This document shows positions 13,137 to 28,084 of a stretch of 37,927 bases of DNA, piece after piece. The stretch's first letter is position 1. Each line of letters begins with the position of its first letter. The DNA lies in contig VGFS01000021.1 in the NCBI GenBank assembly GCA_016868785.1, positions 1-37,927 on the forward strand, read 5' to 3'. The position numbers were made by a program, and so were the translations under genes. Source of the DNA: Bacteroidota bacterium (GTDB lineage Bacteria > Bacteroidota > Bacteroidia > NS11-12g > UBA955). A model generated the notes under the pieces. That model was not told the origin of the DNA. It made no database searches and saw only the letters and a program-made list of their open reading frames with translations.

Positions 13137-15719
13137 ATGAAATTGACTTTGAACGCACGTCTTTCCTTTTTATTCTTTCCGATGGTCGTTTTCGTCGGCC
13201 TAGCCACCCTCCTCGATGCAGAAATTTTCATCAATGAAGTGTCTGAAGGCGAGGAAAATCCGGGGTATTTCACCCAATGGTTTAACGAAAAAAAGGATGC
13301 CAACGGGGAGATTCCGCCGTTTTTGAGATCGCAGTGGGCCAAATACGATGCGATGAAACTCTCGGTATCACGTCGCAGCAACGACAACCCCATCGATACC
13401 ATCATTGAGTTGGGACCCAAATCGGTGGGTGGCAGAACCCGCGGATTTTGGATCGACCCGCGCAATGAGAAAATCATGTTGGCGGCCGCCATCTCCGGTG
13501 GCCTTTGGCGCACCGTCGATGGCGGCCTCAACTGGAAACCGCTCAACGAGCACCAAGTATCGATGATGCCCTCTTGCATCACATCCAACCCCTTCAACCC
13601 CAACGAAATTTATTATGGCACCGGTGAAAGCAGGGCCAACAGCGCCGATGTAGACGGTGAAGGCGTTTTCAAATCCACAGACGGTGGCCTCACATTCAAC
13701 CAAATAACCACTTCGGCAAAAACACCCGGTTTTCAGGAAATTTGGGACATTGAACACGCCAAAGACGATTCCCAAACGGTATTCGTGGGCACCCAAACCA
13801 ACGGCTTGTATCGCTCAACCGATGGTGGATCAACCTTCATCAACGTCTATGCCGGCGGCAACAAACAAGTGACCGATATCTTGTGCCTGACCAACAAACG
13901 CGTCATCGCTACCCTGCACTCTTCACAAGTGGTTGCCTCCGATTCACTGGGAAAACCCGGCACGTTCAAAGCAATTACCTTTCCCAATGCGCCCGGATCC
14001 GGAAGCTACCGTAGAATTCAACTAGCAAGTCCAGCCAAATACCCCTCCGTGGTGTATGCGGTTTTTGAGGGCTATGCGTTCGATGATGTCCCTGTAGCCT
14101 TTTACAAAAGCAGCGATGGCGGACGCACTTGGAAGAAAAAAACGGCGCCCGGCGGAGCCGGCGCCAGTTATCAAGCCTATTGTTTGCTGTTGGGGGCGCA
14201 CCCCACCGACTCCAATTCTGTGGTTTGCGGCGGAGTTAAACTTGTTAGATCTCGGGATGGCGGAAATACCTGGACAGATTTAACAGTAGGTCATTCAGAC
14301 CATCATTCTTTTGCCTACCTCCCCAAAACCACCAATGAATTTGTGGTTGGCACAGACGGAGGCATGTACAAATACCGCTGGAACAGCACAGAAATCTTGG
14401 CTACATTGAACAACGGTTACCGCGTAACCCAATTCTATGCCGGTGCCTACGGGCCTACTGGCTTGGTAGCCATCGCTGGCGCGCAAGACAATGGCACCCA
14501 TGTAGCACGACAGCCAATGGTAAGTCAACGTTTCTTCGGCGGCGATGGGGCCTACTGCCACATCGGACTGCAAGACGGAAGCATCGCCTACATGAGTTAC
14601 CAAAATGCCGCCATTCACGTAATGAAGAGTTTTAGTCCAACCGGACCCAGCTGGGCCACCAACATCACCGATCCCGCCTTCGCAACGGACGTGGTGGACT
14701 TCATCAATTTGTACGAAATGAACCCGGCGGATCAGTATCAAGTGTACTACCGCACCAACAGAGGATTGTATCGCACAACCGACATGGGAAGCAGTTGGAC
14801 CAAGCTCAACCTCAGCATTCGCGCGGGCATCAAGGCCATTGGTATCTCTAAGCAGGAAAATCCCGTGGTATATTTTGGCGGCACTGGGGCTCAGTTATAC
14901 AAAATCGAAAAGGCGGCAACTACCGTGGCTGGAAAGGAAGTGAACTACAACAGCAGTGTGCCTTTGGCCGTGACCAATGACAACATCAAGGGGATGCATG
15001 TGCACCCACAAAACCCCTATATTCTGTATGTGGCGATGTCGAACATCAGCAACCAGCCTCGCGCTTGGAGAGTTACAGGTTTGGACAGTGTTGCCAACAA
15101 GCCGGTTTGGACAAATATTTCAGGCGATTTGCCTCCGGGATTACCCGTGAATATGTTGGCAGTGGACCCGGCGAATCCCGATGCCGTGTTCTTTGCGGGG
15201 ACGGATTTTGGTTTGTACTACACGATTGACAGCGGGAAAACTTGGCAGAAGGACTACCGATTGCCAAACGTTGCCGTGCATGAGATCAAGATGCGCGAAG
15301 ACAGAACATTGTTTGCGTTTACCCACGGCAGGGGCATGTTTGCCATCAAATTAAAGGCCCCAAAAGTTGGGATCCGTTCTATGCAAGGCCGCAAAACTTT
15401 GCAAGCCAAAATATATCCTAACCCCAGCAGCGATGGGTTGCAAGTAAACAGTGGTGGATTTAAACGGCGCCAACACTATTCAGTGATGGATGTAGGCGGT
15501 CGGGTGGTTGCCACTGGTGTGCTCAGCCGTTCACGGGGCGATGTCTTGGGCGATGGAACCGGTGCATTTACGGTAGATGGCGGCTATCGCATCAACACAA
15601 ACAATTTGAAAAACGGCAGTTATTTCTTGCAGATTTCATTGGGTAGAGTCGATGGCATTTCTGTTTCCAGCAGTGAAAGAGGTCGTGTGTTTACCGAGAA
15701 ATTCATCGTACAGCACTAA
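13137..15719 (+). CDS. Secreted Asp-box (VPS10/sortilin-like) propeller protein with T9SS tail
   Basis: The 860-residue protein has an N-terminal signal peptide (residues 1-28). It then has a beta-propeller region opening with ELGPKSVGGRTRGFWIDP. At least seven Asp-box hairpins of the form S/T-x-D-x-G-x-x-W/F occur near residues 125, 180, 227, 325, 372, 547 and 695. From about residue 755 a type IX secretion sorting domain begins with KIYPNPSSDGLQV, and the protein ends in EKFIVQH. Asp-box propellers occur in sialidases, sortilins and photosystem assembly factors; no catalytic sialidase residues stand out, so I call it a secreted propeller of unknown ligand rather than a glycosidase. Toward the 3' end the coding strand changes from C-rich to G-rich. 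Confidence 0.9.
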   Translation: MKLTLNARLSFLFFPMVVFVGLATLLDAEIFINEVSEGEENPGYFTQWFNEKKDANGEIPPFLRSQWAKYDAMKLSVSRRSNDNPIDTIIELGPKSVGGRTRGFWIDPRNEKIMLAAAISGGLWRTVDGGLNWKPLNEHQVSMMPSCITSNPFNPNEIYYGTGESRANSADVDGEGVFKSTDGGLTFNQITTSAKTPGFQEIWDIEHAKDDSQTVFVGTQTNGLYRSTDGGSTFINVYAGGNKQVTDILCLTNKRVIATLHSSQVVASDSLGKPGTFKAITFPNAPGSGSYRRIQLASPAKYPSVVYAVFEGYAFDDVPVAFYKSSDGGRTWKKKTAPGGAGASYQAYCLLLGAHPTDSNSVVCGGVKLVRSRDGGNTWTDLTVGHSDHHSFAYLPKTTNEFVVGTDGGMYKYRWNSTEILATLNNGYRVTQFYAGAYGPTGLVAIAGAQDNGTHVARQPMVSQRFFGGDGAYCHIGLQDGSIAYMSYQNAAIHVMKSFSPTGPSWATNITDPAFATDVVDFINLYEMNPADQYQVYYRTNRGLYRTTDMGSSWTKLNLSIRAGIKAIGISKQENPVVYFGGTGAQLYKIEKAATTVAGKEVNYNSSVPLAVTNDNIKGMHVHPQNPYILYVAMSNISNQPRAWRVTGLDSVANKPVWTNISGDLPPGLPVNMLAVDPANPDAVFFAGTDFGLYYTIDSGKTWQKDYRLPNVAVHEIKMREDRTLFAFTHGRGMFAIKLKAPKVGIRSMQGRKTLQAKIYPNPSSDGLQVNSGGFKRRQHYSVMDVGGRVVATGVLSRSRGDVLGDGTGAFTVDGGYRINTNNLKNGSYFLQISLGRVDGISVSSSERGRVFTEKFIVQH

Positions 15720-21963: not shown

Positions 21964-21973
21964 TACCTGATTA

Positions 21974-22008
21974 AGCCCTTTCTGTACATTCATGCTTTGG
22001 GCTATTTT
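21974..22008 (+). terminator. Possible weak terminator of sucD
   Basis: Five-bp arms 21974-21978 and 21999-22003 enclose a 20-nt loop and are followed by TATTTT. The stem is short, so support is low. Confidence 0.25.
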
Positions 22009-22036
22009 CACCGCCATAATTTTTGCTTGTAGCAAT

Positions 22037-22204
22037 TTATTTATTCGATTTAGACTTGCCAACACCCATTGGCTCAGAAATCTTCATCGACTCATCAGCC
22101 AATCTCGCCCCTTTGTAAATCCGGATGCTGCAGTCAAATTCTTTTTTGAACTGCGCTTTAATGCTCTTAACTGAGCTTGATTTGATCACTTTAATTGTAG
22201 CCAT
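22037..22204 (-). CDS. Small basic protein of 55 residues
   Basis: An ATG at 22204 opens a 55-codon frame ending in TAA. The product starts MATIKVIKSSSVKSIKAQF, continues KKEFDCSIRIYKGARLADES and ends GVGKSKSNK. It reads like a small beta-alpha fold. I recall similar small Bacteroidota proteins with a K-SxxVxSxKxxFKxEF start and an R-V/I-Y-K/D-G-x-x-A-D motif, usually about twice as long, so this may be a short or C-terminally truncated member; that comparison is from memory. Without it, the 371 bp between sucD and the next gene would be empty. Upstream on its strand lie two copies of atttgtact spaced by 10 bp. No exact -7 box is seen. Function unknown. Confidence 0.6.
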   Translation of the reverse strand: MATIKVIKSSSVKSIKAQFKKEFDCSIRIYKGARLADESMKISEPMGVGKSKSNK

Positions 22205-22243
22205 AATTTACCACAACAATAAATCCTACATCAATGCGAATTC

Positions 22244-22262
22244 AGTACAAATGAGTACAAAT
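22244..22262 (+). repeat. Two 9-bp direct repeats with 10-bp period
   Basis: agtacaaat occurs at 22244-22252 and 22254-22262, one helical turn apart, 40-58 bp upstream of the 55-residue ORF. This is compatible with a tandem operator half-site or with chance. Confidence 0.4.
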
Positions 22263-22273
22263 AACCCTACCCT

Positions 22274-22318
22274 CCAAAACAGCGGGGGCGGACCAATGGC
22301 CCGCCCCCGCTGTTTTGG
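22274..22318 (-). terminator. Strong GC-rich terminator of the PKD/T9SS gene
   Basis: Arms 22274-22291 and 22301-22318 form a perfect 18-bp stem around a 9-nt loop, 17 nt beyond the stop codon of the minus-strand gene. The stem includes a four-T stretch near its 3' side but lacks a long T-tract. It is the strongest inverted repeat in the window. Confidence 0.75.
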
Positions 22319-22334
22319 CGTACATGTAAATCAA

Positions 22335-25300
22335 TTACCGCTCAACATTCACCCCATTCATCAATCTCATTTGTCCAACAGGCTCGCCATTTTTCATAAC
22401 CGTTATGAGGTACATCCCCGGCCTCCATAAGCCACTGAGAATTTCTAACTCTCCTGCAAAATCTGCAATCGCTGTCCGCTGCAGTTCCTTACCCACTAAA
22501 TCTGTCACCAAGACGTCTACCCTGGCCGTTGGATCCAATACTTGATATTTCAAAAACGCATTTCCAACCACCGGATTGGGTGCCAAAACTGCCATGATTC
22601 CCGCATATTTCGAATCCACGACACTCAAGTGATTTCTGCAATCAGGCAATGCCACACACACCGTTTTAAAGCAATATCGCCCCGTCGCCGGATCTGTTAG
22701 TAACACCTTAAAACATACCGTTCCGTCCAAGGGATATTGGTCGAAATAATTGAATGCAAAGGTCTGATTGCCTAATCCAATTACAGTGGGACTCAACCCG
22801 CTCACCACACCCCCCTGAACCGGCAATATTTGCACCTGAGCATTGACACCAAATGGATTAGCTACCGTAAGATCAATGTCGTAATTCCAACCGTTCAGTG
22901 ACGGCTTTGCGCAATGCGCACACAACCCGTTAACCGCAAATGTGCAACTGTCCTTACATGGTTGATATTTAAAGGCAATTGAATCTTTACACACCTTTTT
23001 TGTAACAGGATCATATACATACAAATACAACCACATAGCACCGGAATGAGGTAACAGATCTGTGTACGAAAAACACTGTGTACTAAGGCCCGTGGGAATC
23101 GAAACAGGATTAACCGCAAAACTCGCTGAATTACTCACCAATGTTAGCGTGGAACCATTACTACCACCCCAGTTCACACTCAAACACAAATAATACTGTG
23201 GGTTTCCAAAAACGTCAGTACCCATACATTGAATACTCTTCACCTTGTAAGCATCTTTACAATCTATCCCCCCACATCGCGGCAATGGAATACACAAAAA
23301 CGTATCACAAGATTTCGGTTTTGTGGTATCATTCTGAGGATTCGTGGCTATTTTCTGATAAGTGGTTAACTGAACATAAAAACATGCCGTGTCATCCACA
23401 TTGGGCAAATCTTCAAATACGAAACTTACGGTACTGTTTCCCAACGGCAAGGTTGACGGAGATACAGTCCCCACCAATCCTTGCAATGAAGAAATCAACA
23501 CCGTAGCATTGTTTCCCACCGTGTTATTGATATTGAAATTCATCTGGTACGTCTGATTTCCCGCAGGTGACACCGGTCCACAATCTACCTTCCCCATGAT
23601 ATCAAAATCACAATCTGTTTCACAAATCACAAAATCAATGTTGATTGGGTCCGACATGCTGCTACATCCCGCCGAGTTGGTTACCAACACCGTGTAAGTC
23701 GCGTCTTGATGCATCACCAAATGCAAAGTATCCTTCACATGTCCCGTCATGATAACACCATCCATATACCATTGGTAGGAAGCAAAGCCCTGAGGCGCAT
23801 ACCATACAACTTCTTTCACTGTATCACAATAAGTGTAACAGCCCGTCTTCAACCCACACAAATCGGGCAGCCGAGAAATCACCGCCGAAGCCGTAGCCTT
23901 GCAACCATTGGAATCCACAGCCGTCACCACATATCCCCCCGCAAACCCCGTAACCAAAGTATCATTGATAACACCATTGTTCCATTGATAATAGGCCAAC
24001 AATGGAGAGGGGCTCTGAGCAACCAACACATGAGATTGACCTTCACACATGTTTGGCGGAGCCAATATATTAACCGTGGGTACCCCCACCGTTGTAACCC
24101 ATAGTGTGTCGTACGCATAGCAGGTATCCGGACTTCTAATGATCACCGAAACCATATGACTGCCCAAAGAGCTTGCATAATACCCCATGGTATTGCCTGT
24201 TGCCCAAGGCACAAGCGACCCATCAACAGACCATTGTATACTCGCACCCGGCAAACTATTTGGATAGGCAACCGTAAAATCTACAAAATTGTTTTTACAT
24301 AGCTTCAACGGCCCTTGAATGTTCGCCACCGGCGTATTTTTCTGAACTACCGTTACGGTATTTGACAAAAACAAACATCCCTTCACGTCCGAAAAGGTTG
24401 CCTGGTAATCCCCGGATTGGTGCGCCCAAATAGATATCGTCGTTTCTGTGGTATTCCATAAACGGCTGTATGGAGGATAACCTCCTCCAACCACAGAGTT
24501 TAATTTTACGGAATCACCCCCACAAAAACGCAGTGGACCCACCGCCGATATACTCCCTGTCAGGGTATTTGGAAGAACCCTAACGTAACGGGAATAACCA
24601 TCAACACAACCTAAGTTGCTTGTAAGTTGCAAATTTACCAAATACAATCCCGCGTTAGCATAAGTGCGCATGGGTGACATTAACGTGCTGGTAGACCCAT
24701 CTCCAAACGACCAATTACTGTTCAAACCCAAACCTGTACTAGTATTCGTAAAGACTACAGGCGTGCCCACACATACAGAATCTATGGCATTAAATGCCGC
24801 ATTTGGAATTCCCGGTACCACCAAGTTTTGAATCATTTGACAAACTCCATTTACGGTTAGTTTTATGGAGTAGGTTCCTGGAGCTAAATTAAATACGGGA
24901 TTTTTAAGAGTACTGCTGAAACCACCCGGCGTGATGAGCCATGCGTATGAAGGTACAGGAAATCCTGACAATACCTTTGTGGTATTTATAAATTTAACCC
25001 CAACAGTTGAAGCATTGGTCACGCAATACATTGAATCAAAGAAATTGGCCACATACTTAATTGTATCCACCTTCATCACGCACTTATCGCAAAACCCTGT
25101 GCCTGCAGTGTTCGGCACTAAGCCACAAAGTTTAACACGGTAATAACCAGGTTCTGGAAAAGTATGTGTAGCACTGAGTCCGCTACCCCCTGATGAGTTG
25201 AAGGGATCATCAAAACTCCATGTTAAACCTGTCACATTTGAACTTGCAACACCTTGAAAACTGTCTGTGTTACAACCCTGTCGATAGCGGTTGAAATTCA

Positions 25301-27986
25301 AGGTATACGTTTGCGCTGTACATGGAACACAGGAAACAATTGAGACCGTTATGGCATTCGACACCCCTGTGCATCCATATGCATTGGTAGTACTAACATA
25401 ATAGGTGCCTGTTGCAAGTGCCGTATAAGATGCTCCTGTGGCGCCTCCCGGACTCCACGTGTATGTAGCACCAACAACAGGGGCAGCAACCGTCATGGTT
25501 GTTGACACGGGCTTGGAACAGAATTCCGTAGGATTGGGCGTGGAGATATTTATAGTCGGTTTGGGCTTTACCACCACGTTATGTAATGCACTCGCCGTAT
25601 CCACACAATTTCCTCCATAAATGGCAGTGAGTATAACTGTGTAATTACCGGCCGATGCAAAACTATACGAGACACTGGCACCGCTGCCAGTACCACCATC
25701 ACCAAAAGTCCATGAATAATTAGCCGCAGGGGTACTGCTGCTGAAATTGGCTGTAACCCCGGCGCAAATCGTCGACGGTCCTGCAATAACCGGTGGCGGC
25801 GGCGGTTGCACCGTAACAGCAAACGAATCCACTCGACTGCTTCCACAAACCCATCGCTGCAACACCACGTAAGCCGTTCCCGTGTATTGATTCCATTCTA
25901 CATTTGCACTGTTGGTATGGTCTCCCGCAGTAACACTACCAGCAACGGATGGTACCACGTACCAGTGGTAATCTGTAGCCACAGCCGTTGTTGAATATAG
26001 ATTCAATGGTGAACTTGGACAGCCAATCAAGGAACCAGAAATTGGTGCTGGCCCCATGGGTAATAGCGATTGTATATTCACAGTAATTGGCAATGAAGCA
26101 CAGCCTGTCTGTGGATCTACTTGCGACAAAGAAATCGAATAGGGTCCAACGGCATTCCATGTAATGGCAACCATCTGACCTACGCCTACAGCTGGAGAAC
26201 CTCCAACCACTGTCCATTTCAATACCATGGAGGGATTACTTGCCACACCAGTATAGGTATGGGTGCTACCCGGACAAACCACAAAAGGACCTTGAATAGT
26301 ATCCGGCGGCGCTGGTGGCGGAGCAACAACAAAACTTGCACCGTGAGGACCACCACAATACGTATTTGCATTGTCTGTCAACACAACGGAATAACTGCCT
26401 GGAACCAATGGCATCGACCCTGAAAATGGAACATTACCTGCCAACAACGAGGATTGTACCACGCTCCCTGCAGCATCTACAATACTCCATCCCAAGCTAA
26501 CGGATGAAGGTGGCCAAGCCGTAAAGGAAAAATTGGCACCAACACAATAAACGGGACTTACACCGCTCAAATTTAACGATGGCCTCACCATCAATGCCAA
26601 ATTTGCCGTACCACCACAAGACAATGCCGGGCTAGCCCCTTCCGCATGATGGAAATACTCCACCCACACAGAACCCGTTAAATTTTGTTGATAAAAACAA
26701 ACCTTCACAGAATGCTCATTGATGGTATCACTCATCACAGTAACACCCGCCGGAAAATGCCACACAATACTGTCAACCGGAATATCACAATCTAAATGAT
26801 AAGAATAACAATCACCGTAACAGACTGCAGATGGTCCTTCAATGTTGGTCGAGTTACCAATCACGGGAACTTCTACTGTGGTTGCAGCCGGACAATAGCC
26901 TGCACAATTAACCCCCAATGTCAAATAGAAAGGCCCAGTTTGACCCCACTGTACCGTAATCAATGAGTCATTAACGCCTTGGGTTATTTGACCACCGGTT
27001 GCACTCCAATTGTATCCATTACAATCGGCATCCGTGTAATACTGTTGGGTACTTCCACCACAAACCGTACTGATACAAAAAATATCAGGTCCCGGCATTC
27101 CTGAAACCATTACCCATTGCGTGAACGTGTCCTTACAACCACACGCATTTACTGCAACCAAGGTAACTAAGTACTGGCCACTGTCGTTGTAAGCGTGTGA
27201 TGCGGCCTCATCAGCTGGGTAACTTTGAACCGAGGTCGAACCATCCCCAAAATCCCAATACAAGGCCTGTAACGGAGTTCCGCCACCAGCATTACTCTGA
27301 TCCACAAACAATACCTCTTGACCCAAACAAGCCACAGTACCCAAACTGCCTGCCGCCGGCATCGTTGAAAACTGGGCATTTGGCGATGCAACCACCTTGA
27401 TGCATTGTTCCGCCATTCCCACACATCCGTAGGCAGATGTTTCCTGAACCGAGAGGGTATGTTCTCCCAAAGTGGTCCAATAAACCTGCACTGAGTTACC
27501 GTTAGCCACCATTACTCCCGCACTTCCGACGGACCAAACGTATGTACTTCCATAATTGGCCGGCGTTGTGTAAGTCATCCAAGTAGAGTCACAGGCAGCC
27601 AAGCATGTAAACTTGTCCTTGCCCTGACTTCTCGAACTATCACATTTCGAGACAAACGAAGAGGAAATTATGGGCTGTGGCTTAGGCCTAACAACCACCG
27701 ATTGTACATCGGTGCACACAACATTCATCGCAACATCTCTCACAACCACCGTGACAGTCCCGGCTCCAACGCTCCCCCAAAACACGGAAATCGATGCACC
27801 TGAACCCGATATGACACCCCCACCAGTACAACTCCATTGGTATGTGTATGTACCTGTGAGTGCCGACGAATAGTTAGCCGATGTCCCTGAACACGGGTTC
27901 GCATTGCCTGAAATCTCACAAACCGAGGCCAGTATCAACCCCCACTGAGCCACAATTGCAAGGATAAAGAGTATCGTTTTTTTCAT
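22335..27986 (-). CDS. Giant secreted PKD-repeat surface protein with T9SS tail
   Basis: The 1883-residue protein has a signal peptide (residues 1-21) and a long series of Ig-like/PKD domains. Clear PKD cores lie near residue 242 (WDFGDGST), 758 (WTFGDGG), 922 (WSFDDP) and 1091 (WSFGDGS), with many diverged repeats between them. Residues 1459-1783 are three copies of a Cys-framed module of about 100-115 residues. The C-terminus from about 1790 is a type IX sorting domain beginning AVLAPNPVVGNAFLKYQV. Such proteins are exported through the outer membrane and act as adhesins or matrix components; the ligand is unknown. Cysteines are frequent, suggesting disulfide stabilisation outside the cell. 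It is isolated between two strong terminators, and I see no clear -7 box upstream. Confidence 0.93.
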   Translation of the reverse strand: MKKTILFILAIVAQWGLILASVCEISGNANPCSGTSANYSSALTGTYTYQWSCTGGGVISGSGASISVFWGSVGAGTVTVVVRDVAMNVVCTDVQSVVVRPKPQPIISSSFVSKCDSSRSQGKDKFTCLAACDSTWMTYTTPANYGSTYVWSVGSAGVMVANGNSVQVYWTTLGEHTLSVQETSAYGCVGMAEQCIKVVASPNAQFSTMPAAGSLGTVACLGQEVLFVDQSNAGGGTPLQALYWDFGDGSTSVQSYPADEAASHAYNDSGQYLVTLVAVNACGCKDTFTQWVMVSGMPGPDIFCISTVCGGSTQQYYTDADCNGYNWSATGGQITQGVNDSLITVQWGQTGPFYLTLGVNCAGYCPAATTVEVPVIGNSTNIEGPSAVCYGDCYSYHLDCDIPVDSIVWHFPAGVTVMSDTINEHSVKVCFYQQNLTGSVWVEYFHHAEGASPALSCGGTANLALMVRPSLNLSGVSPVYCVGANFSFTAWPPSSVSLGWSIVDAAGSVVQSSLLAGNVPFSGSMPLVPGSYSVVLTDNANTYCGGPHGASFVVAPPPAPPDTIQGPFVVCPGSTHTYTGVASNPSMVLKWTVVGGSPAVGVGQMVAITWNAVGPYSISLSQVDPQTGCASLPITVNIQSLLPMGPAPISGSLIGCPSSPLNLYSTTAVATDYHWYVVPSVAGSVTAGDHTNSANVEWNQYTGTAYVVLQRWVCGSSRVDSFAVTVQPPPPPVIAGPSTICAGVTANFSSSTPAANYSWTFGDGGTGSGASVSYSFASAGNYTVILTAIYGGNCVDTASALHNVVVKPKPTINISTPNPTEFCSKPVSTTMTVAAPVVGATYTWSPGGATGASYTALATGTYYVSTTNAYGCTGVSNAITVSIVSCVPCTAQTYTLNFNRYRQGCNTDSFQGVASSNVTGLTWSFDDPFNSSGGSGLSATHTFPEPGYYRVKLCGLVPNTAGTGFCDKCVMKVDTIKYVANFFDSMYCVTNASTVGVKFINTTKVLSGFPVPSYAWLITPGGFSSTLKNPVFNLAPGTYSIKLTVNGVCQMIQNLVVPGIPNAAFNAIDSVCVGTPVVFTNTSTGLGLNSNWSFGDGSTSTLMSPMRTYANAGLYLVNLQLTSNLGCVDGYSRYVRVLPNTLTGSISAVGPLRFCGGDSVKLNSVVGGGYPPYSRLWNTTETTISIWAHQSGDYQATFSDVKGCLFLSNTVTVVQKNTPVANIQGPLKLCKNNFVDFTVAYPNSLPGASIQWSVDGSLVPWATGNTMGYYASSLGSHMVSVIIRSPDTCYAYDTLWVTTVGVPTVNILAPPNMCEGQSHVLVAQSPSPLLAYYQWNNGVINDTLVTGFAGGYVVTAVDSNGCKATASAVISRLPDLCGLKTGCYTYCDTVKEVVWYAPQGFASYQWYMDGVIMTGHVKDTLHLVMHQDATYTVLVTNSAGCSSMSDPINIDFVICETDCDFDIMGKVDCGPVSPAGNQTYQMNFNINNTVGNNATVLISSLQGLVGTVSPSTLPLGNSTVSFVFEDLPNVDDTACFYVQLTTYQKIATNPQNDTTKPKSCDTFLCIPLPRCGGIDCKDAYKVKSIQCMGTDVFGNPQYYLCLSVNWGGSNGSTLTLVSNSASFAVNPVSIPTGLSTQCFSYTDLLPHSGAMWLYLYVYDPVTKKVCKDSIAFKYQPCKDSCTFAVNGLCAHCAKPSLNGWNYDIDLTVANPFGVNAQVQILPVQGGVVSGLSPTVIGLGNQTFAFNYFDQYPLDGTVCFKVLLTDPATGRYCFKTVCVALPDCRNHLSVVDSKYAGIMAVLAPNPVVGNAFLKYQVLDPTARVDVLVTDLVGKELQRTAIADFAGELEILSGLWRPGMYLITVMKNGEPVGQMRLMNGVNVER
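22638..23612 (-). repeat. Three tandem Cys-framed modules inside the PKD/T9SS protein
   Basis: The modules start at Cys1459, Cys1576 and Cys1681 and end near residues 1572, 1676 and 1783. Each begins and ends with a cysteine and has a Cys about 8-10 residues in. Each then has a G/N-x-x-Y beta strand, a P-x-x-(I/L)-x-x-G-x turn followed by an F-x-(F/Y)-x-D strand, an aromatic or Cys-Phe strand, and a D-P-x-T-(G/K)-x-x-C or equivalent near the end. DNA identity between copies is low, so the triplication is old. I do not know a named domain for it. Confidence 0.6.
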
Positions 27987-28020
27987 GCTGATGTAGATTA
28001 GTTATCAGCAACATACAAGA

Positions 28021-28054
28021 AAAAGGGCAGATTATTACTCTAATCTGCCCTTTT
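28021..28054 (-). terminator. Intrinsic terminator of ftsK-lolA
   Basis: Arms 28021-28034 and 28041-28054 form a perfect 14-bp stem with a 6-nt loop, starting 30 nt past the lolA stop. The arms begin with four A and end with four T, so it can work in both directions; on the minus strand it runs into TTTTTCTT. It insulates lolA from the PKD gene. Confidence 0.85.
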
Positions 28055-28084
28055 GAAACAATTTTATTGACACTCCCTTGAATA

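Follow-up and report, generated by a model that had tools for sequence, protein, structure and literature searches.

A giant T9SS cargo protein encoded in the analysed window (the whole 37,927-nucleotide stretch of DNA, from a Bacteroidota bacterium) carries, between an array of PKD/Ig-like domains and a sorting tail, three copies of an Ig-like beta-sandwich domain family of about 105 residues, which is unnamed in the libraries searched. The triplication is old, and we lean towards the view that the triplet is a stalk holding the PKD array off the cell. With these observations, the known parts of T9SS surface proteins are extended by a domain family that has a clear signature and no name yet.

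The giant protein and its three terminal units

The protein is the product of a minus-strand open reading frame (22335-27986; 1883 aa, 72 Cys), and the 13 long orthologs of the order, the window's own included, align along its length. All of the parts described below lie on the minus strand. Residues 24-1375 (23862-27917) form the PKD/Ig-like domain array, with PKD_4 and PKD matches above the Pfam cut-off (137.6 and 77.1 bits, respectively, for the protein). Residues 1376-1458 (23613-23861), directly ahead of the triplet, form an Ig-like domain with a G-C-Y motif, which by eye also precedes the units in giant proteins of other orders; in structure comparison, the prediction for this domain matched Ig domains such as that of MALT1 (Z 10.2, 1.8 A over 80 residues). 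Behind the triplet, a linker (residues 1784-1801; 22584-22637), in which cleavage by PorU would be expected, leads to a T9SS type A sorting domain (residues 1802-1868; 22383-22583). Just past the stop codon there is an inverted repeat (22274-22318, 22-nt arms, 95% complementary), which is a probable terminator.

The T9SS tail proposed in the initial annotation was upheld by a TIGR04183 match above the cut-off on the protein (26.5 bits, cut-off 23) and by the presence in the same genome of SprA (2191 bits, cut-off 200) and PorU (1009 bits, cut-off 420). The predicted structure of the sorting-domain part matches the C-terminal parts of PorU (Z 8.9) and PorZ (Z 8.4). The tail is a divergent one, since the Pfam tail model PF18962 gives 11 bits on the C-terminus, below its cut-off of 27, and since a whole-genome TIGR04183 search gave 57 type A tail matches without listing that of the giant.

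Translation of 22638-23612 gives exactly the 325 residues (1459-1783 of the giant) that had originally been split into three units, and each unit does begin and end in Cys, as claimed. Unit 1 spans C1459-C1571 (113 aa; 23274-23612), unit 2 spans C1576-C1677 (102 aa; 22956-23261) and unit 3 spans C1681-C1783 (103 aa; 22638-22946), with linkers of 4 and 3 residues between the frames. The Cys framing is thus real, but it is not peculiar to the triplet, as the PKD/Ig array ahead of it also has regularly spaced conserved Cys residues. As regards the motifs that the units were said to share, the P-x-x-I/L-x-x-G turn and F-x-F/Y-x-D are seen by eye in all three, but the late D-P-x-T-G/K-x-x-C occurs only in units 2 and 3; at the corresponding place unit 1 has D-T-T-K-P-K-S-C, after an insert that lies before C1560.

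The homology of the three units was borne out in two ways. The pairwise local alignment scores (121 for units 1 and 3, and 64 for both pairs that include unit 2) were reached by none of 1000 shuffles, whose means were 27-28 (SD about 5). In addition, 21 consecutive segments of the protein, represented by an alignment of 13 orthologs, were tested with a profile of 13 units, none of which came from the order. This profile matched residues 1459-1571 at 99.5%, 1572-1677 at 99.1% and 1678-1783 at 99.3%, whereas none of the 18 other segments (PKD/Ig array and tail) exceeded 1.6%. The unit boundaries therefore follow the regular spacing of the Cys residues, and the units differ from the PKD domains that precede them, both of which the initial annotation had anticipated. 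The low DNA identity that it reported also stood: codon-aligned, the units are 35-49% identical to each other, and 21-37% identical at the amino acid level.

The window triplet matched no family in Pfam (E 1), NCBIfam or PHROGs, and when 33 units of the order were scanned singly against Pfam, none reached any cut-off, that of an existing Ig or PKD family included. The PKD families (PF18911, PF00801) are absent from the 13 Pfam families that these 33 units match weakly, and the PKD domains ahead of the units in the same protein have no profile kinship to them. Nearest by score is He_PIG (PF05345), whose best match among the 33 is a first unit (locus L048) with 23.7 bits, just short of the cut-off of 24. 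This score, together with the Ig-like sandwich predicted for unit 3, might be taken to mean that the units are merely divergent He_PIG or PKD domains. We find this hardly credible: even at E 1 a He_PIG match is seen in just 3 of the 33 units, none is seen in the three window units, and in a profile-profile comparison with a seven-row He_PIG alignment (a small sample) the unit profile gave at most 2.9%, against 88.1% for a control of half versus half; the low values of the PKD/Ig segments mentioned above argue in the same direction.

Among 31 units including those of other orders, the best Pfam match was that of a single member to FtsH_ext (E 3.7e-5, 24.3 bits, cut-off 25.5). A sequence search of the PDB returned no convincing match for the triplet (best E 0.6) or for a 33-row profile (best E 0.093). 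Genome contigs scanned with a single sequence yielded 6 pattern-matching stretches and viral contigs 48 pattern matches, with no relative in either set; plasmid records yielded 10 weak matches, which cover at most 39% of the protein and whose query ranges end by residue 1372, short of the triplet. A literature search returned no paper whose title or opening part of the abstract describes the domain or the giant protein.

Predicted fold and cysteine pairs

The model of unit 3 alone, obtained from 46 rows (pLDDT 93.5, pTM 0.81), is all-beta, with seven strands (8-19, 22-33, 39-43, 49-55, 62-73, 79-87 and 94-102), and matches solved Ig-like domains. Two Foldseek matches had E values under 0.001 (best 6.9e-4). 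The 50 Foldseek matches shown, most of which we take to be Ig-like or FN3-like domains, have TMq values of 0.31-0.60 and include adaptin ear, GGA GAE, MHC and FN3-like protease domains. With VIA, the best Z was 8.9, which is middling and little above the stated background; the top matches, with this near-background score, were to the copper-binding PCuAC domain (2.9 A over 98 residues, 10% identity). We take these results to mean that the family, though unnamed, has an ordinary Ig-like fold. The model of the 523-residue C-terminal piece, obtained from 18 rows, reached a pLDDT of 77.7 and a pTM of only 0.47, so the arrangement of the units relative to each other is not readable from it; in the linker, model residues 425-434 (1785-1794 of the protein) have a pLDDT under 50.

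Cys residues were tallied, in unit-3 numbering, over 86 units (57 from the order and 29 from elsewhere), many of which are orthologs and hence not independent; weak profile matches with E near 1e-3, which are probably false (e.g. that in G364, which is located on a sorting-tail-like end), are included. The four framework Cys at positions 4, 15, 95 and 106 occur together in 82 of the 86 units, and two of the four exceptions look truncated or poorly aligned. A further pair is found at 81 and 100 in 60 units, at 28 and 67 in 21 units, and at neither place in 5; no unit among the 86 has half of a third pair or both pairs, with or without alignment tolerance. Nearly all carriers of the 28/67 pair (19/21) are second units of the order, the other two coming from outside the class (G637 and G520). 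In the window protein, the third pair is C1535/C1565 in unit 1 and C1758/C1777 in unit 3 (strands F and G in both cases), but C1601/C1638 in unit 2 (strands B and E).

According to the strand table of the unit 3 model, positions 81 and 100 are in antiparallel register (strands 79-87 and 94-102), and so are 28 and 67 (strands 22-33 and 62-73). That the third pair sits at one of two places, never at both and never as a half, is what two alternative disulfides would produce. Judging from the sequences, each unit would be held by three disulfides, two of them common to all units and the third predicted to clamp strands F and G in units 1 and 3 but strands B and E in unit 2. The paired disulfides that the initial annotation suggested are thus supported by Cys co-occurrence, and the exclusive choice between two pairs offers a clean natural case for the study of how a disulfide can move within one fold. 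Within the framework, bonds 4-95 and 15-106 would share an offset of 91, as might be expected if strands A and G ran parallel; the alternative bonding would be 4-106 with 15-95.

Unit 3 has a seventh, odd Cys, which lies inside a C-A-H-C motif in strand A (residues 1689-1692; 22911-22922). This residue, C1689, has no counterpart in the other units: a Cys at position 12 occurs in 19 of the 86 units, and all of these are third units. C-x-x-C is present in all 19 unit-3 sequences of the order, and the His in 18 of them. Over the whole giant, 71 Cys columns are kept in at least 11 of the 13 long orthologs of the order, and 19 of these columns, an odd number, fall inside the triplet. Other conserved residues include W34, G36 and S37 of unit 2, and in unit 3 altogether 23 positions are kept in at least 18 of the 19 sequences.

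Distribution, age and possible role

All genome tallies given here count the window's own genome, and they too include such weak, probably false profile matches. Within the order, 21 of 108 genomes match a 3-row unit profile and 20 of 108 a 33-row profile. Exactly three units are present in all 19 complete loci of the order (the window included), and the remaining two of the 21 genomes (G074 and G099) have partial, weak matches only. In a tree of the 57 units, the second units lie together on one side of a branch (100/100) and the third units likewise (99/98), which makes them positional orthologs; the first units are not recovered as a group (2 changes). When units from other classes were added, units 2 and units 3 each stayed together (99/98 in both cases), and the deeper forks were weak. 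The presence of three units in 19 of 19 loci and the clades of second and third units indicate that the triplication is old, in agreement with the old duplication with conserved structure proposed initially. It should precede the split between the order's two families, because both carry all three unit types.

Beyond the order, 13 of 395 genomes of the class match the 33-row profile and 14 of 395 a 31-row profile; in a draw from the phylum, 19 of 395 genomes match. The named scan comprised 18 loci, 17 of them with the triplet. The window protein can be aligned along most of its length, with 25-28% identity, to six giants found in other orders (1772-2046 aa, 60-81 Cys), which carry three (G187, G223, G312), two (G213, G244) or one (G302) recognisable units. 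The giant can therefore be regarded as a collinear family in which the number of terminal units varies with the lineage. Within the order it keeps its length, its domain order and nearly all of its Cys residues, and it is collinear in other orders of the class; adhesins usually have variable repeats. In other classes, one or two units are found inside proteins of 1.0-2.6 kaa. A 955-aa protein of genome G452 has a single unit behind its signal-like N-terminus, and no tail was listed for this protein when it was scanned against Pfam at E 0.1. Since the domain also occurs near the N-terminus or inside other proteins, it is not a dedicated anchor and is not tied to the tail.

Several individual loci deserve mention. 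The two units of G244 (L104, 7161-7838) are nearly identical by eye, which suggests that they were duplicated recently, in contrast to the window's old triplet. G072 (contig C23, 119836-120088) contains a second copy of a unit, partial and broken, with an internal stop. In G024 the giant gene is spread over five open frames (L014, 9180-14821), through either decay or misassembly. In G016 (L015, 530-9980), three frames of 969-988 aa next to one another have about 28% identity to part of the adjoining giant, and a 3082-aa frame with weak similarity to the giant adjoins it in another locus (L068, 7778-17023).

In Porphyromonas gingivalis, PorU removes the CTD of type A cargo by cleavage and attaches the newly formed C-terminus to A-LPS (PMC5562754). 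By analogy, the giant would probably lose its tail through a PorU cut within the disordered linker that follows unit 3, and its new C-terminus may be joined to an outer-membrane glycolipid. Unit 3 would then be nearest the membrane, and units 3-2-1, with joints of 3-4 residues between their Cys frames, might make up the stiff, protease-resistant base of a rod, which would lift the PKD array outward. We consider this stalk, a role suggested already in the initial annotation beside that of a surface anchor, the best reading of the triplet because of the position beside the tail, the 3-4 residue linkers and the precedent of gingipain RgpB, whose Ig-like domain before the CTD has been proposed as a spacer or insulator, followed by a disordered linker (PMC4804311). 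The likeness to the RgpB IgSF-CTD is one of part order, i.e. Ig-like domain, unstructured linker and T9SS sorting domain; RgpB has one Ig domain behind a protease, whereas the window protein has three units with conserved Cys pairs behind a PKD array. Several observations count against a stalk. The domain also occurs away from sorting tails, the model of the C-terminal piece does not show how the units are arranged, the giant's tail fails the Pfam cut-off and is missed by the genome search, passing only in the TIGR04183 protein scan, and the conservation of W34, G36 and S37 in unit 2 and of C-x-H-C in unit 3 answers no obvious need of a mere spacer.

Other long surface proteins offer partial parallels. 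SprB carries a type B CTD. Type B CTD proteins such as SprB are, like the giant, large T9SS surface proteins, but they associate with PorP-like proteins (PMC9143113), whereas the giant has a type A tail. SiiE is also a very long Ig-like chain on a bacterial surface; it has 53 BIg domains, type I secretion and calcium sites (PMC5466336), whereas the giant is a Cys-rich T9SS protein of about 20 domains (estimated from its length).

The conserved residues of units 2 and 3 could instead point to binding, with these two units recognising a ligand (a glycan, a polymer or a partner cell) and the PKD array acting as a mere carrier. Unit 2 keeps a W-G-x-S-type loop region, unit 3 is well conserved, the copy number is fixed in the order, the lone unit after the N-terminus in G452 is in an odd place for a stalk, and one unit has a sub-threshold CBM_35 match (16 bits versus 28). 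However, the triplet lies beside the tail, no family of known binding passes its cut-off, and the conservation of the triplet is equalled or surpassed in array residues 201-400 and 1351-1400; we therefore hold a binding module to be unlikely. The part order that is shared with RgpB, including the low-pLDDT linker (1785-1794) between the Ig-like domain and the CTD (PMC4804311), would also fit a role of the last unit or units in the logic of secretion and sorting, as a folded Ig-like insulator ahead of the cleavage linker. Such a role seems rather improbable, as three copies exceed the need of an insulator and the genome has units in just one gene but 57 type A tail matches, which indicates that the T9SS of this bacterium needs no such unit in general.

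The extra Cys of unit 3 brings up yet another explanation, namely that the extra Cys of C-x-H-C bonds to another chain (in a dimer or with a partner protein), which would make the triplet a point of covalent docking or cross-linking. The near-invariance of the motif, the restriction of the position-12 Cys to third units and the odd number of conserved Cys columns in the triplet are in its favour. Against it, total Cys differs among the orthologs (69-75 in the 12 that exceed 1860 aa), so that the Cys parity is only suggestive, and C1689 might have a bonding partner in its own chain or serve as a metal ligand; we give cross-linking little credence. With equally small probability, the findings could be joined in a bolder picture: a phylum-wide Ig-like family of two disulfide types (F-G or B-E clamp), whose third copy in the order, through the free Cys of C-x-H-C, would cross-link neighbouring giants at the membrane into a disulfide-bonded surface layer. 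The stalk remains the reading that we prefer.

Genomic setting of the giant gene

The giant gene of the window lies between convergent lolA and sucD (21964-28084). No units were found at E 0.001 in 14 genomes of the same genus. In six of these congeners lolA is directly beside sucD, without the giant, with 86-254 bases between the frames; the comparison consists of these six, as the other eight gave no lolA match and are uninformative. The site looks like a single-gene gain or loss, either a gain in the window species or a loss in the congeners. The third-position G+C of the giant gene is 0.43, compared with 0.47-0.62 in eight other genes of the window, and a repeat search at both ends of the gene revealed just two terminator-like inverted repeats. 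Between sucD and the giant there is also a 55-codon open reading frame (22037-22204, minus strand) starting with MATIKVIKSSS, which is too long for five of the six congener spacers.

The flanks of 12 giant loci from other genomes have no gene in common with the flanks in the window, except for a weak similarity in L046 (24% over 137 aa). In 23 loci, some of them truncated by the end of a contig, four gene families other than that of the giant were seen in at least three genomes: MurB (5 genomes), urocanase (5), a ClpB-like ATPase (4) and a LytTR response regulator (4). The LytTR-domain regulator is located less than 0.8 kb from the giant in four genomes of three families (L056, 2785-3507; L104, 5991-6695; L184, 7866-8645; L105, 3992-4801). 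LytTR regulators are common, so this proximity may be due to chance. The window also encodes, on the plus strand (13137-15719), a second T9SS cargo protein, which has repeats of the sortilin/BNR type and a sorting tail (Por_Secre_tail, 29.2 bits versus a cut-off of 27).
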